Shown here: piece after piece, positions 41,833 through 52,681 of the stretch
Layout of the letters: every line of letters starts with the position of its first letter
Position numbering within the stretch: position 1 is the stretch's first letter
From: Spartobacteria bacterium LR76
GTDB taxonomy: Bacteria > Verrucomicrobiota > Verrucomicrobiia > Chthoniobacterales > Terrimicrobiaceae
Reading direction: 5' to 3'
Length of the DNA: 64,000 nucleotides
NCBI GenBank assembly: GCA_003054655.1
Contig: QAYZ01000013.1
Span: forward strand, 496,001-560,000
Translations under genes and position numbers: made by a program
Notes under the pieces: generated by a model
Seen by the model: only the letters and a program-made list of their open reading frames with translations
Told to the model about the DNA's origin: nothing
The model's database searches: none

Positions 41833-42999
41833 ATGACAAAATCCCGTAAGTATCTCGTGGTCGGTGCCGGTTTTTCCGGCGCAGTAGTGGCTCGTCAGCT
41901 CGCCGAGCGGCTTTCTGCGGAGATTCTGGTCGTGGATGCCCGGGACCACATCGCCGGCAACTGTCATACCTCCCGGGACGCGTCTACCGATGTAATGGTA
42001 CATCATTACGGACCACATATCTTCAATACGAACAACAAAACCGTGTGGGAGTATGTCAACCGGTTCGGGAAGATGCATCCCTTCATCAACCGCGTCAAAG
42101 CCGTCACTCCTCGCGGCGTTTTCCCCCTGCCGATCAACCTCTTTACCATTAATCTCTTCTTCCAGAAGGCCTTCCGACCGGACGAAGCTCAGGAGTTTCT
42201 CGCCACCGTGGGAGACCCATCGATTGAGGAGCCGAAAAACTTCGAGGAACAGGCACTCAAGATGTTGGGGCGGGATCTCTATGAGACCTTCTTCTACGGG
42301 TATACCAAGAAACAGTGGGGCACAGATCCCCGTGAGCTCCCCGCTGCCGTGCTCAAACGACTCCCGGTTCGCTTCAATTACGACGACAACTACTACGACA
42401 AGGAATTCCAAGGCATCCCGGAAAACGGCTATACCGACATCGTACGAGGCATCCTTGATCATCCCTCCATCGAAGTCCGCCTGAACACCGCCTTTCACTC
42501 TGCCGAATGGCAGCGCGGCGAGTACGATCACTGTTTTTACACCGGTCCGATCGACGCCTTTTTCCACTACAGCAAAGGCAGGCTCGGTTATCGCACAATG
42601 CAGTTTGAACGCTTCGAGGCCGAGGGAGATTATCAAGGCACGGCTGTACTCAACTACCCCGATCCCTCCATCCCGTGGACGCGTGTGCACGAGCATAAAC
42701 ACTTTACCCCATGGGAAAAACACGAGCGTACCATCGTCGTCCGCGAATACAGCAAGGAAACCGGCCCTGAGGATACACCCTACTATCCCAAACGCCTTGC
42801 TGCCGATAAAGAGCTGCTCAAAAAGTATCGTGACCTCGCCAGCGCACTCACCGACGTCTCCTTCCTCGGGAGACTGGCCACCTATCGCTACATGGATATG
42901 GAAACCGTCATCGGCGAAGCCCTCGATTTTTCCGAAAAGTTCATAGTTGCGTCCTTGGCAAATCAAGCGATTCCCGTATTCCCTAACGAGGAACCCTAG
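41833..42999 (+). CDS. glf: UDP-galactopyranose mutase
   Basis: FAD enzyme interconverting UDP-galactopyranose and UDP-galactofuranose, 388 residues. FAD motif VVGAGFSGAVVARQLAER, then GNCHTSRDASTDVMVHHYGP with the conserved YGPH, YTKKQWGTDPRELP, the substrate Arg in LKRLPVRFNYDDNYY, the second Arg in TIVVREYSKE, and FLGRLATYRYMDM near the end. All hallmark residues are present, so it should supply UDP-Galf to this locus. The partner paralogue at 47963-49102 is much diverged. It follows the PMT-like gene and precedes a DPM1-like GT2 gene. Confidence 0.94.
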   Translation: MTKSRKYLVVGAGFSGAVVARQLAERLSAEILVVDARDHIAGNCHTSRDASTDVMVHHYGPHIFNTNNKTVWEYVNRFGKMHPFINRVKAVTPRGVFPLPINLFTINLFFQKAFRPDEAQEFLATVGDPSIEEPKNFEEQALKMLGRDLYETFFYGYTKKQWGTDPRELPAAVLKRLPVRFNYDDNYYDKEFQGIPENGYTDIVRGILDHPSIEVRLNTAFHSAEWQRGEYDHCFYTGPIDAFFHYSKGRLGYRTMQFERFEAEGDYQGTAVLNYPDPSIPWTRVHEHKHFTPWEKHERTIVVREYSKETGPEDTPYYPKRLAADKELLKKYRDLASALTDVSFLGRLATYRYMDMETVIGEALDFSEKFIVASLANQAIPVFPNEEP

Positions 43000-45972: not shown

Positions 45973-46461
45973 ATGGAAATTGATACAATCATCTCCGGCT
46001 ATGAACGTGAGCTCACCGGCATTTTCATCGAGTTCGCCGAAGCCTTGGGAATGCCAGCTTCGTTGGGCGCCATTTACGGCTTGCTCTTCGCCTCGCCCGT
46101 AGCCCTCACCATGGAGGAGGTGACCTGCAAGCTGGAAATCAGCAAAGGCTCAGCCAGCCAGGGGCTGCGACATTTGGAAGAGTTTGGCGCCGTGATTCGC
46201 GAGCGTGCGGATGGCGAACGGTCCCACCGGTACAGTGCCTCGCTGGAACTGAAAAACCTCCTCTCCGGCTTTCTCCGCGAACGGCTGGTACCGAGGCTCC
46301 GGCGCGGCCAGCAGCGGCTTTCCTCACTGGAAGAAAGAATCTCCTCCCTGCCGGACAAAACGCGAAAAATCGCCCAGACGCGCGTCGCCAAGCTCGGGCG
46401 GTGGCATCATCGCGCCACGCTCCTGTTGCCACTCGTTCAGAAATTCATCCTCCGCGATTAA
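45973..46461 (+). CDS. GbsR/MarR-family transcriptional regulator
   Basis: A 162-residue winged-helix repressor-like protein. The HTH reads ALTMEEVTCKLEISKGSASQGLRHLEEFGAVI, followed by the wing RERADGERSHRYSASLEL, and a C-terminal dimerisation helix (RQQRLSSLEERISSLPDKTRKIA-like, rich in Arg). GbsR-type proteins regulate osmoprotectant and envelope genes. It sits alone in the middle of the polysaccharide locus and is the only regulator in it besides the terminal PAS protein. Its last 11 codons and stop are duplicated 1.4 kb downstream. Confidence 0.85.
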   Translation: MEIDTIISGYERELTGIFIEFAEALGMPASLGAIYGLLFASPVALTMEEVTCKLEISKGSASQGLRHLEEFGAVIRERADGERSHRYSASLELKNLLSGFLRERLVPRLRRGQQRLSSLEERISSLPDKTRKIAQTRVAKLGRWHHRATLLLPLVQKFILRD

Positions 46462-46476
46462 CCACGCCATGCGGAG
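46426..46476 (+). repeat. Left copy of 51-bp direct repeat flanking the acyltransferase gene
   Basis: This segment covers the last 11 codons and stop of gbsR plus 15 nt beyond. It matches 47837-47887 at 49 of 51 positions. One mismatch is a silent Leu change (TTG/TTA) inside the coding part, the other lies after the stop. Weaker similarity continues for roughly 55 nt beyond both copies. Confidence 0.85.
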
Positions 46477-46625
46477 CCAAACATTCGATCAGCCATCGGT
46501 GATGTATTCTCTCAGAATTCACCGCGGGCGGCAGCTTACTGAGTCATATTGAGCGCACTCCCTCGACTCGGCCCAGGGTTACAACAAGCCAACCTATCTT
46601 AACCACTCATGATTCCTTCTGCAGC

Positions 46626-47771
46626 ATGAATCCGAAATTCTCACCAAGGGATCCGAGTATGCACGCGACATTCTCGCATGGGGAAATCTGCAATGTTCAG
46701 ATATTGCGAGGACTCGCAGCGATATTTGTTATATTTTACCACATTTATCTTTGGGAAGGAAAGAATTTCGGGCGCGGATGGGCTTCCCCTAACTTCTTCA
46801 GGATAGGTGATGCCGGCGTCGATATCTTTTTCACCATCAGTGGATTTATCATGGTTTACATTCAGCCCAAAGCGCTCAGCGACTGGACAAACTACCGCCG
46901 CTTCATCCTGAATCGTATTACCCGCATCTTTCCGCCATATTGGATTGTTTCTTTAGCCCTTTTACCTCTTTGGATTTTGAGACCAGATCTATTTAATAAT
47001 TTCTATCATAATCAGGTAGACATTGTACGTTCATTTCTCTTACTTCCACAAAACTACACTCCCCTTCACGGCGTTGGATGGACGCTCATCCATGAGTTAT
47101 ACTTTTACTTCGTAGTTTCCTTCGCTCTCTTATTTGGATTCCGAACACGAATACTATTCGGCCTCATTTGGGGCGGAATAATTCTCCTTGTCAATTTCTG
47201 GTTGGGCGATAATGCAGGAAGAAGCAGCCCCTTCCTCCAACTCTGCCTCAGCCCGTTCAGCCTAACTTTTCTGCTAGGTTATTTCGTCGGACTTTTCAGC
47301 ACATTGCCACTTCAGTTCCCGAATAAGGTCCACTATACAATCTTGCTGGCTGGAGTCTTACTGTTAATCTACGCTTTTTACTTCCCCCCTCCAGGAGGAG
47401 TGTACCCAAACAACAACAGCCTACGCAGGTTCATTATGTATGGATTGCCCGGCGCGGCATTCCTATTCGCATTTATTGGATTAGAGAAATCATGGAGAGG
47501 CCATTTCAGGATATTTGAGAAAATTGGTAATGCTTCTTATTCAATATATCTCACCCACCTTCCGCTCATTGCAGCCATTTATGCACTTTTCTCCAAGACG
47601 CTACCTCCGGCCCTCAGCTCACATCCGCCAGTTCTGATCGGGATCGGTATACTTTCGCTATGTGTCAGCATTCTTGCTGGAGTCATATTTCATCTATGGA
47701 TTGAGCTTCCCTCCGTAAAACTTGCCCGTAGCCTATGCGGAGTCACAAACAGAAAAATGCCCGCCACCTAG
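46626..47771 (+). CDS. Acyltransferase family 3 membrane protein
   Basis: A 381-residue integral membrane acyltransferase of the OafA/WbpC type. The catalytic His lies in LAAIFVIFYHIYLWEGK, followed by IGDAGVDIFFTISGFIMVY and RRFILNRITRIFPPYWIVS, all diagnostic. About ten TM segments follow. It likely O-acetylates or otherwise acylates a sugar of the polymer. Its codons are clearly AT-richer than those of adjacent genes, and it lies between the two 51-bp direct repeats, both signs of acquisition by recombination. Confidence 0.88.
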   Translation: MNPKFSPRDPSMHATFSHGEICNVQILRGLAAIFVIFYHIYLWEGKNFGRGWASPNFFRIGDAGVDIFFTISGFIMVYIQPKALSDWTNYRRFILNRITRIFPPYWIVSLALLPLWILRPDLFNNFYHNQVDIVRSFLLLPQNYTPLHGVGWTLIHELYFYFVVSFALLFGFRTRILFGLIWGGIILLVNFWLGDNAGRSSPFLQLCLSPFSLTFLLGYFVGLFSTLPLQFPNKVHYTILLAGVLLLIYAFYFPPPGGVYPNNNSLRRFIMYGLPGAAFLFAFIGLEKSWRGHFRIFEKIGNASYSIYLTHLPLIAAIYALFSKTLPPALSSHPPVLIGIGILSLCVSILAGVIFHLWIELPSVKLARSLCGVTNRKMPAT

Positions 47772-47806
47772 CATGGCACATTCTTCAGACCTCCTGCAGC
47801 AGGACT

Positions 47807-47872
47807 TGGCATCTTGTTGCGCGATGCGCAGCCAAATTACCACTCGTTCAGAAATTCATCCTCCGCGATTAA
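47807..47872 (+). pseudogene. Remnant of the 3' end of a gbsR-like gene
   Basis: The in-frame translation ends with LPLVQKFILRD and a stop, identical to the C-terminus of the GbsR protein. The preceding residues (TWHLVARCAAK) still align loosely with its RWHHRATLL. No start or HTH part remains. It sits right after the acyltransferase stop codon and upstream of the second mutase gene, so it marks a former gbsR copy or a recombination joint. Confidence 0.7.
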
Positions 47873-47887
47873 CCCCGCCATGCGGAG
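47837..47887 (+). repeat. Right copy of 51-bp direct repeat flanking the acyltransferase gene
   Basis: Matches 46426-46476 at 49 of 51 positions, offset 1411 bp. It contains the terminal codons of the gbsR remnant and 15 nt beyond. The spacer leads to the second UDP-galactopyranose-mutase-like gene. Confidence 0.85.
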
Positions 47888-47962
47888 GAACCATCCACCC
47901 CACAGCCATCATGACTTCTTCCCGGAATCACCAAGATCGGCGGCGGGCATAACCTAAATCAG

Positions 47963-49102
47963 ATGTCCTCGCATATCTCATCTCTTCCCGAAAAGATCGA
48001 CTATCTCATCGTCGGTGCCGGCTTCGCGGGCATCGTCCTGGCCGAACGTCTCGCATCCCAATGTGGAAAGCGTTGCCTGATCGTTGATCGTCGCAACCAC
48101 ATCGGAGGCAACTCGCATGATGGAAAAAACTCCGACGGGGTATTAGCCCATACTTACGGCCCCCACTATTTCCGGACGAATTCCGATCGGATCATCGATT
48201 ACCTCAGCCAGTTCACGGAATGGCATCCCGTAGAGTATCAGATCCTCTCCTGGGCGGAAGGAAGGCATTGGCAATTCCCTATTAACCTGAACACCTTCGA
48301 GCAATTGCTCGGTCGACCATCCACCACGGAGGAGATGGAAGCGACACTCGCGACGTGGAGGGTTGATATTCCTGTTCCAAAAAATTCCGAGGATGTGATC
48401 GTCTCGCAGGTGGGCTGGAAGCTCTACGAGCTATTCTTCAAGAACTATACCCGCAAGCAGTGGCGACGTGATCCGAAGGATCTCGACCCTTCCGTGTGCG
48501 GTAGAATCCCTGTTCGAACAAATCGCGACAATCGCTACCTTTCGGAGAAGTTCCAGGCCCTGCCAAAAGAGGGCTATACGGAGATGTTTAAAAGGATGGT
48601 CGACCATCCTCTCATTCACGTCTCGCTCCTCACAGATTACCGCGATCTGCCGCCCTCCCTGTCCTACAAACACATGATTTACACGGGCATGATCGATGAG
48701 TTCTACGATTTTCGATTCGGCCCGCTGCCCTATCGCTCCCTACGATTCGAGCCCGAGACATTCGATGTCGAGTTTTGGCAACCCGCCCTTCAGGTCAACT
48801 ATCCAAACGATCATGAGTTCACCCGCATCGTAGAGGTCAAGCATGCGACTGGCCAGGAGCACCCAAAGACCACCATCGTACGCGAGTACCCTGAAGATTT
48901 CGGGCCGGGGAAAGAGCCGTATTACCCAATACCTGCGCCGGATGCGAAGGCCGTCTACTCTCAGTACGCAGCCCTCGCCGACAAAGAAATGGACGTCAGT
49001 TTTGTCGGCAGGCTCGCGACTTACAGATACTACAACATGGATCAGGTGATCGGCATGGCCCTGGCCGAATTTGAATCTCTGAAATCCCGTTACACTATCT
49101 AG
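47963..49102 (+). CDS. Second, divergent UDP-galactopyranose mutase-like protein
   Basis: A 379-residue FAD protein of the UGM family. FAD motif LIVGAGFAGIVLAERLA, NHIGGNSHDGKNSDGVLAHT, the YGPH motif in HTYGPHYFRTN, YTRKQWRRDPKDLD, the substrate Arg in GRIPVRTNRDNRYL, a second Arg in TTIVREYPED, and FVGRLATYRYYNMDQ at the end. All landmark residues are kept, so it is likely active, yet it differs throughout from the mutase at 41833-42999. A different pyranose-furanose substrate (for example a modified galactose) is possible. No gene symbol given because the substrate is uncertain. Confidence 0.85.
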   Translation: MSSHISSLPEKIDYLIVGAGFAGIVLAERLASQCGKRCLIVDRRNHIGGNSHDGKNSDGVLAHTYGPHYFRTNSDRIIDYLSQFTEWHPVEYQILSWAEGRHWQFPINLNTFEQLLGRPSTTEEMEATLATWRVDIPVPKNSEDVIVSQVGWKLYELFFKNYTRKQWRRDPKDLDPSVCGRIPVRTNRDNRYLSEKFQALPKEGYTEMFKRMVDHPLIHVSLLTDYRDLPPSLSYKHMIYTGMIDEFYDFRFGPLPYRSLRFEPETFDVEFWQPALQVNYPNDHEFTRIVEVKHATGQEHPKTTIVREYPEDFGPGKEPYYPIPAPDAKAVYSQYAALADKEMDVSFVGRLATYRYYNMDQVIGMALAEFESLKSRYTI

Positions 49103-50671: not shown

Positions 50672-51942
50672 ATCTCCCACCAGCGGTTACGAAGATCATC
50701 TCCAGCCGACTCTTCCGGCAGGCCTCCCATATGATGGGATGGCAGGCCCTTACCAAATGCATCAGCTTCTTCGCGGCGATCTGGTCGGCTCGCTGTCTGG
50801 GCCCGGAGAACCTTGGCAAGTCCGGCCTTGTTTTGTCGATAGTGGCTCAGGCAAGCCTATTAACTACACTAAGTATCGAAGCTCTTTTGGTTCGCGAGTA
50901 CAAACAAGGCAGTCCTGAACGACAGCAACATCTCATCGAGATCTACACAACATTAAGAGTATCGATCTCCATTGTTTTCACATTGATTGCACTCCTAGTC
51001 GCCGCGACAGCTTTCAGGGATTCGCCATACTTTTGGGGGATTTTGGTTGGAATCCCCTATTACCTGATAAATGCCAATAATGCGTCATGGCTATTGATGG
51101 CAAAAGAGAACATGCCGGCCAACTCGCGATCAGCCGCCGTTACGTCCGTTGCAATCGCCGTCCTGACATTCACATTTTTCCGCCCGTACCAACCAGCCTT
51201 TTCAGACATTGTCGTCATCTCGATCGCCTCGTTCCTTGGTTTCATTCTTGCCTGGAAGGCTGCCGATGATAGATGGCTCCCTCGGATAGCGAAACTCTCA
51301 CTCCTTGCCGATGGTGCCAGATTGGCTTGGGAAGGACGCTGGCTCTTTTTAATCGGCCTGTTTGCCTACTTGTACACCAGCCTGGAGCAGCCTCTCGTCG
51401 GCATTCTCGCCTCTGCCGAGGACTTGGGTCTATACAGAACAGCAACGAACCTGGTCGGCACGCTTCAGCAGTTTCTGTTGCTTATCCCTACACTCCTTTA
51501 CCCTCGTCTCATTGAATGGAAAAAGAAAGGCATCAAACCCTTCTGGCACCGCCAACTTCAAATCGCCCTCCTCTTATTTCTCGTGGGTTCTTTGATATCG
51601 CTGTCCTCTTTCATTCTGGCTCCGATTTTTTATCCCATACTTTATGGCCCGGCATTTTCAGGCGCAGCCATTCCGTTCACTCTGCTTGTAACCGCTAAGT
51701 GCCTGATACTGGTGGAGGGCATTTTCTCCTGGGGACTCCTGGCTTTACAACGTGAAAAGCGATTACTATTATTAATGGTAATCACCGCCTCCATCGCAGT
51801 CCCTCTTTATTTCACTATAATTCCAAGATATGGAATAATTGGGGCCGCCGCCACGAACCTGGCGATGGAAGCGCTGTTTTTTGCAATGTGTTTCGCATTA
51901 TCATGGAAACTTTCACATAAACATCAAAATGAATCGCTTTAA
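50668..51942 (+). CDS. Wzx-like flippase (polysaccharide biosynthesis membrane protein)
   Basis: A 424-residue MOP-superfamily flippase with about twelve TM segments. The start is typical (AVTKIISSRLFRQASHMMGWQALTKCISFFAAIWSARCLGPENLGKSG in outline). Family features include FLIGLFAYLYTSLEQPLVGILAS and YRTATNLVGTLQQFLLLIPTLLYPRL. It would move undecaprenyl-linked repeat units across the inner membrane. Its base composition turns distinctly AT-rich over the second half. It overlaps the beta-helix gene by 4 nt and the next methyltransferase gene by 14 nt, so all are probably co-translated. Confidence 0.88.
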   Translation: MNLPPAVTKIISSRLFRQASHMMGWQALTKCISFFAAIWSARCLGPENLGKSGLVLSIVAQASLLTTLSIEALLVREYKQGSPERQQHLIEIYTTLRVSISIVFTLIALLVAATAFRDSPYFWGILVGIPYYLINANNASWLLMAKENMPANSRSAAVTSVAIAVLTFTFFRPYQPAFSDIVVISIASFLGFILAWKAADDRWLPRIAKLSLLADGARLAWEGRWLFLIGLFAYLYTSLEQPLVGILASAEDLGLYRTATNLVGTLQQFLLLIPTLLYPRLIEWKKKGIKPFWHRQLQIALLLFLVGSLISLSSFILAPIFYPILYGPAFSGAAIPFTLLVTAKCLILVEGIFSWGLLALQREKRLLLLMVITASIAVPLYFTIIPRYGIIGAAATNLAMEALFFAMCFALSWKLSHKHQNESL

Positions 51943-52681
51943 GGAAATCGTTCGGCAATGGTCGGTCAAGAATTCTCGTATTCGAAATCTGCGCGCCCTG
52001 TATTTGCTGCTTACAGGAAAAGCCAAACCGCTGGGTCTCTCCCATATCTACTCCTATCAAGAGGAGCAGGCGATTGGCCCACTTCAAAGGGAAGAAGCCT
52101 TGTTTTTATTCGCCCTTCTCCGAGTGGTCCGACCGAAGCTCGTTGTTGAATTTGGATTTCTCCGTGGAGACAGCGCCCTGAATTTCCTTGCTGCAATCGC
52201 TCCGGAGGGACGCCTCTTGAGCTATGACATCTCAGACGAAGCCGAGCACTACGCAAAGCTATATTTTAGCGATTATGGACATTTCAAGTTTCTGAAAAAG
52301 TCACAGACTGAATTTTCACCACAAGACCTTGATTCCCAGTTAGTTGATTTCGTCTTTCTCGATGCCGCCCACGACCTGGAGCTCAATCAAAAGACATGGC
52401 AACTTTTACATCCTCATCTTAGCGAAGAGGCTATCGTCGCCATCCATGATACAGGAACTTGGTCTCGCAAGCATTTGGGACCTCTCCAGAATCGTCATAT
52501 CGCGAAAGAAAATTGCACATGGATATCCGAAACTGAACTAGCGCACCAGCCGGACGAGCGCAAATTCGTAAATTGGATTCGTGAAAAGCACCCTTCATTT
52601 TCCACAGTTAACTTACATACTGGAAACACCTTGCGTCACGGGTTAACGCTAATTCAAAAATCCAGATACCTCGATGTCTAG
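51929..52681 (+). CDS. Class I SAM-dependent methyltransferase
   Basis: A 250-residue protein starting at the ATG at 51929 inside the end of the flippase gene. The SAM motif is KLVVEFGFLRGDSALNFLAAI, with acidic LLSYDISDEAEHYA, then VDFVFLDAAHDLELNQKTWQL, the motif of Methyltransf_24-type sugar O-methyltransferases (FLDAAHD). The end HGLTLIQKSRYLDV overlaps the next gene by 8 nt. It probably O-methylates a sugar or a GT product; family assignment by motif. AT-rich like its neighbours. Confidence 0.82.
   Translation: MNRFKEIVRQWSVKNSRIRNLRALYLLLTGKAKPLGLSHIYSYQEEQAIGPLQREEALFLFALLRVVRPKLVVEFGFLRGDSALNFLAAIAPEGRLLSYDISDEAEHYAKLYFSDYGHFKFLKKSQTEFSPQDLDSQLVDFVFLDAAHDLELNQKTWQLLHPHLSEEAIVAIHDTGTWSRKHLGPLQNRHIAKENCTWISETELAHQPDERKFVNWIREKHPSFSTVNLHTGNTLRHGLTLIQKSRYLDV

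Follow-up and report, generated by a model that had tools for sequence, protein, structure and literature searches.

Why should the 3' end of a regulatory gene lie on both sides of an acyltransferase gene? In the 64,000-nt stretch of DNA analysed (the window), the last 11 codons and the stop of gbsR, together with 15 nt behind them, recur on the far side of a single gene, just before glf (Table 1). The original prediction read this repeat correctly: the two 51-nt copies agree at 49 of 51 positions, and the bracketed gene is AT-richer than its neighbours (45.4% GC and a GC3 of 49.0, against 59.1 and 71.8 for gbsR and 53.5 and 65.8 for glf). It is not alone in AT-richness, as a methyltransferase gene at 51839-52681 has 46.9% GC and a GC3 of 48.8. 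Searched against a 288-genome sample of the phylum, the acyltransferase matches nothing at E<=1e-30 outside its own genome, and its nearest relative in the order is 33% identical. The gbsR product is homologous to the GbsR/CudC regulators, with homologues 37-53% identical in related genomes. It differs from them in falling below the CudC cut-off and in that GbsR stands at polysaccharide operons across the order.

Table 1. Coordinates of the features between gbsR and glf, numbered from the first letter of the window.
Feature	Position	Strand	Remarks
gbsR, winged-helix regulator (GbsR/MarR family), 162 aa	45973..46461	+	NCBIfam CudC partial match E 3.7e-9; solved relative MJ223 E 8.7e-11
Repeat, copy 1	46426..46476	+	3' end of gbsR (11 codons and stop) with the next 15 nt; inverted repeat CTCCGC-N15-GCGGAG inside
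Full duplicated segment, copy 1	46426..46535	+	113 columns, 76% vs copy 2
JUMPstart-like leader, copy 1	46493..46540	+	hairpin arms 46497-46502 / 46519-46524; ops-like GGCGGCAGCTTA 46527-46538
Membrane acyltransferase (Acyl_transf_3), AT-rich, putatively intrusive	46626..47771	+	PF01757 E 4.2e-33; GC content in text
Repeat, copy 2	47837..47887	+	inverted repeat 8 bp (TCCTCCGC/GCGGAGGA)
Full duplicated segment, copy 2	47837..47944	+	BLAST of gbsR end
Decayed JUMPstart-like leader, copy 2	47888..47955	+	ops position GGCGGCGGGCAT 47939-47950; outer 5' hairpin arm missing
glf, UDP-galactopyranose mutase, likely original gbsR neighbour	47963..49102	+	TIGR00031 360.5 bits, above cut-off; 73% to glf behind gbsR in G006

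Extent of the Duplication

The 51-nt pair is unique in the 4.75-Mb genome: it aligns with an E value of 3.4e-17, the next best matches are at chance level, and a pattern search returns these two copies alone. A wider BLAST search with the gbsR end extends the alignment to the full segments of Table 1, which reach the ops position (E 3.5e-18). Weaker similarity had been claimed on both sides of the repeat, and it holds on the right, where none of 400 shuffles extends as well from the anchored core. It does not hold on the left: without gaps, 30% of 120 nt are identical, and none of three tests of left homology is significant (anchored extension from the core, p = 0.21 for DNA and p = 0.11 for protein). 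Because the right extension is significant and the left one is not, the duplication comprises the 3'-terminal codons of gbsR with the leader behind them, not a decayed gbsR. The same low identity and p values mean that the decayed gbsR remnant, which was thought to lie in frame with the second copy, finds no good evidence outside the 51 nt; an in-frame WH pair is no more than a hint of such a remnant. The proposal of two once-functional gbsR alleles also lacks support, since the duplication covers the last codons alone and the left flank has no significant similarity to gbsR.

A direct repeat at a gene end that leaves the gene intact, enclosing an AT-rich insert, could also result from site-specific integration at the gbsR 3' end, the repeat being attL/attR and the acyltransferase gene the cargo of a small or decayed element. 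This is very improbable, as the acyltransferase gene is the sole credible gene between the repeats, with no integrase or transposase gene there, and the genome contains no third copy of the repeat. Unlike att sites, moreover, the copies share homology beyond the core, as recombination between leaders predicts. The inserted cassette of the original prediction is thus retained as an insertion at the gbsR end, which two related genomes (G006 and G014) have without the insert, but not as a mobile element.

The repeat also contains an inverted repeat, CTCCGC..GCGGAG, which spans the gbsR stop at 46449-46476 (6 bp) and its counterpart at 47859-47889 (8 bp). Strings like CTCCG..CGGAG stand just behind the gbsR stop in G002, G006 and G009. 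The 51-nt repeat might accordingly have been kept by selection as an element of its own, an operator or attenuator hairpin before both genes, and the z value of -3.5 for the 8-bp repeat of copy 2 fits this idea. We regard it as improbable: half of the repeat is gbsR coding sequence without the hairpin, copy 1 reaches a z of only -0.8 in that fold, and as a general element the post-stop hairpin is confined to close relatives and absent from most relatives checked.

No sigma-70 promoter was found around the locus, and a search of the GTDB collection by peptide patterns returned no close relatives of gbsR. An integron attC site was considered and dropped, no core sites being visible by eye.

A JUMPstart-Like Leader behind gbsR

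What the original prediction missed is why this site is shared: a leader resembling JUMPstart/ops stands here, and it is included in the duplication. The JUMPstart element reportedly goes back to Hobbs and Reeves in 1994, and its ops is the loading site of the antiterminator RfaH. In relatives of the window genome, a conserved bulged hairpin followed by GGGCGGCAGC[A/T]TGCC is located 38-80 nt behind gbsR, and the leader is present behind gbsR in nearly all relatives inspected. Typically, the hairpin has an outer stem (GGTY/RACC) and an inner stem, with 2 nt bulging out on the 3' side. The ops-type element of these operons reads GGCGGCAGC. Its GGCGG[CT]AGC.TG is near-invariant in 40 leaders: ops positions 1-5, 7-9 and 11 do not vary, and positions 6 and 12 reach at least 90%. 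The hairpin covaries across 57 aligned leaders, with a score of 0.258 against 0.125 when shuffled and at most 0.116 for slid structures; 82% of the cells pair, and 68 cells are double-changed against 31 in shuffles, in an alignment that leans towards structure because it was fitted to the covariance model.

The leader is linked to gbsR and to polysaccharide genes. Among the strong covariance-model matches in relatives (n = 42), 22 are found 3' of a gbsR gene (38-80 nt away in 20 cases), and four more stand just 5' of gbsR. A scan of GTDB genomes with the DNA motif RCCARRGGCGGCAGCWTGCC gave at least 80 loci. Among the matches listed (80 loci), 49 are Verrucomicrobiota by title, one of these Lentisphaerae; GbsR genes occur in 12 of the listed loci, and 11 have an RfaH-like NusG paralog next to the element, both sets lying entirely within Verrucomicrobiota. 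The first genes behind the leaders mostly concern polysaccharides and encode an ABC-2 exporter, NTP transferase, Gmd, glycosyltransferases, sugar transferase, glf or carbamoyltransferase.

Exceptions, named by eye, are an NAD-synthetase-like protein (locus L075) and DAHP synthase: in two Verrucomicrobiota a JUMPstart-like leader (L091 2818-2864 and L095 3465-3510) stands before an apparent gene for this enzyme of the aromatic amino acids. The window genome (G000) itself has further leaders. One stands between a second gbsR and an ABC-2 exporter gene that follows it (G000:C10:280980-281551; 53.4 bits), and another (G000:C1:38124-38168; 28.6 bits) precedes the gene for a CoA_binding_3-domain protein, which is probably an undecaprenyl-phosphate sugar transferase.

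The arrangement is that of the enterobacterial element, a hairpin and GGGCGGTAGCGTG. In both, a TTGG..CCAA stem-loop directly precedes GGGCGG(T/C)AGC.TG upstream of polysaccharide operons, and a Salmonella primer, ATTGGTAGCTGTAAGCCAAGGGCGGTAGCGT (PMC3715488), shares the stem of TTGG..CCAAGGGCGGCAGC.TG in Verrucomicrobiota leaders. These leaders differ in having C for T at ops position 6, a conserved 2-nt bulge, a longer inner stem and a GbsR gene in front. The Rfam JUMPstart motif was reported from gamma-Proteobacteria (PMC2864571). Its model, RF01707, has no match in the window between 44000 and 50000 and none over the cut-off in 58 genomes, with weak matches in relatives. Searches of one open-access library found nothing relevant on JUMPstart/ops in Verrucomicrobia or on GbsR with polysaccharide genes; JUMPstart is already known, and the Verrucomicrobiota version with its GbsR partner appears to be undescribed.

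The NusG Paralog

Besides its housekeeping NusG, the window genome encodes one paralog (G000:C1:253-537), which is nearer to RfaH than to NusG. Its best NCBIfam match is RfaH, at 100.3 bits and so below the TIGR01955 cut-off of 144.5; against UpxY (NF033644) it scores 80.9 bits, below the cut-off of 100, and its closest solved structures are those of RfaH (E 5e-13). Like RfaH, UpxY and LoaP it is a second NusG-domain protein. It differs from RfaH and UpxY in lying under the curated cut-offs and in being unlinked to the cluster in the window genome. At E<=0.01 the element is found in 23 of 26 complete genomes with a second NusG and in none of four with the housekeeping NusG alone, counts that are not independent because the genomes are related.

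Antitermination of the RfaH type at ops sites is known chiefly in Proteobacteria, the source of about 95% of RfaH proteins, and how NusG paralogs are recruited when their own operon encodes them has been termed unknown (PMC7593976). The conserved, covarying ops-type leader of Verrucomicrobiota, associated with a NusG paralog and GbsR, provides a recruitment site that can be tested in a phylum far from Proteobacteria.

The Two Copies of the Leader

A covariance model built without the window sequences places its top window match at copy 1 (16.3 bits, E 0.012). Scaled to the whole genome this is about E 0.9, which is not significant, and copy 1 is not listed in the whole-genome search; the case for it is therefore positional. 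The resemblance could be chance, the repeat being a plain partial duplication with no regulatory meaning, and the score, which would not stand out genome-wide, agrees with that. To this explanation we give the least credence of all, as copy 1 outscores every other window position and lies just where the element is found in relatives, and it retains GGGCGGCAGCTT together with a paired hairpin whose arms have other bases.

Copy 2, before glf, is undetected by the model down to 5.8 bits. The ops-like GGCGGCAGCTTA of copy 1 is one base off the core GGCGGTAGCGTG and has lost the pause G (TTA for TTG, with A at position 12); it counts as the core or a close variant, whereas GGCGGCGGGCAT of copy 2 does not. 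Copy 1 has a stem-loop before ops, with a 6-bp stem (p 0.06 alone), and in copy 2 the stem is lost. Judged by sequence, then, the leader before the acyltransferase gene is recognisable but weak and the one before glf is decayed. In the ops of E. coli, RfaH is no longer recruited once G4C, G5A, A7T or G8C is introduced, and the pause is lost with G12C (PMC5995543). Copy 1 keeps G4, G5, A7 and G8, and copy 2 is without A7, C9, T11 and G12. By analogy, some activity may remain in copy 1 and none in copy 2.

The spacing between stop and ops is nearly equal in the two copies: GGCGG begins at 46527, 66 nt behind the gbsR stop (which ends at 46461), and at 47939, 67 nt behind the copied stop (ending at 47872). 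Equal spacing would be expected had the locus once held two tandem modules, gbsR-leader-acyltransferase and gbsR-leader-glf, from which a deletion left only the last codons of the second gbsR. Tandem modules of this kind do exist in another genome, G013. The left flank of copy 2 holds no significant gbsR remnant, however, and a core identity of 96% is too high for old modules like those of G013 unless they were homogenised, which makes such a history unlikely.

The G013 locus (L069, G013:C98, 1285-5401) deserves a description of its own. It consists of two tandem modules, each with gbsR, a short ORF and a JUMPstart-like leader, which lie about 3.0 kb apart and are 72.6% identical over 299 nt around the gbsR end. 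The short ORF resembles, by look, the four-helix 23S intervening-sequence protein.

Gene Order in Related Genomes

The original prediction called for a comparison of the interval between gbsR and the mutase gene in relatives. In G006 and G014 the order is gbsR-leader-glf with nothing between, and the glf products are 73% and 60% identical to that of the window. G004 has a more distant glf (37%) behind gbsR. In G057 glf is also found behind gbsR, although a short extra gene may intervene, and the ops element is upstream of gbsR. Because G006 and G014 have gbsR, leader and glf directly in line, the acyltransferase gene looks intrusive.

The gbsR end had further been proposed as a hot spot for swapping polymer-modifying genes, and the first gene behind gbsR does vary among relatives, from glf to NTP transferase, ABC-2 exporter, sulfotransferase and carbamoyltransferase. 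G002, a member of the same genus, shares its left-flank export genes with the window genome at 92-98% identity; gbsR follows with 46% identity, and behind it lies a different cluster with other polysaccharide genes. Since the neighbours of gbsR differ in this way across G006, G014, G004, G057 and G002, the region behind gbsR is, on gene order, a site of gene exchange, and gbsR-glf is likely the older order here. The galF-gnd O-antigen locus of enterobacteria is similar in that a conserved flank and leader are followed by polysaccharide genes that can be exchanged. It differs from the window, where a single gene has apparently been added behind a duplicated leader and the old leader left inside.

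A Proposed Origin of the Bracketed Gene

We consider it probable that recombination at the leader placed the acyltransferase gene behind a leader copy, leaving the older leader as a relic before glf, and that antitermination of the RfaH type operates at the leader. The locus would be a polysaccharide cluster of variable content, with the bulged hairpin and ops-type sequence behind its gbsR. By analogy with RfaH, RNA polymerase would pause at this leader, and the specialised NusG paralog, acting in trans, would load there and prevent premature termination in a long operon. From a probable original order of gbsR-leader-glf, recombination between copies of the gbsR end and leader, or duplication of the leader with gene gain, would have put the AT-rich gene behind a leader copy. 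A donor leader carrying the acyltransferase gene may thus have been joined at the gbsR end, the recipient leader being kept before glf, where it would decay. We infer all three: antitermination, which copy is older and the recombination route.

Identity falls from 96% in the 51-nt core to about 60% over the next 60 nt. Plain duplication and decay does not explain this jump without gene conversion or two alleles, and it suggests that two different leaders crossed over in the core or that the core was converted later. The bracketed acyltransferase gene could be a snapshot of how polysaccharide genes join behind such a leader. Its place between two leader copies suggests that genes for modifying sugar polymers are exchanged directly downstream of a common element that controls transcription.

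More broadly, we propose tentatively, and with not quite even confidence, that Verrucomicrobiota share an undescribed module for polysaccharide control, composed of a GbsR-type regulator, a JUMPstart-like bulged hairpin with ops and an RfaH-like NusG paralog. New genes for surface polymers would be captured by leader duplication, the newest standing behind the working copy as older leaders decay within the operon.

Duplicated leaders are also present elsewhere. At L100 (1246-3086), a gene named by eye as nucleotide-sugar dehydrogenase lies between two JUMPstart-like leaders that are 71% identical over 172 nt and 1.8 kb apart, the same layout as that of the bracketed acyltransferase gene. Three contigs of one Akkermansiaceae MAG (L098, L154 and L160) carry near-identical leaders, with 70-93% identity reaching about 220-380 nt past the leader start, which suggests that leaders are copied within a genome. 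The window cluster itself holds two glf genes, at 41833-42999 and 47963-49102, and the former is 77% identical to the glf that adjoins gbsR in G002.
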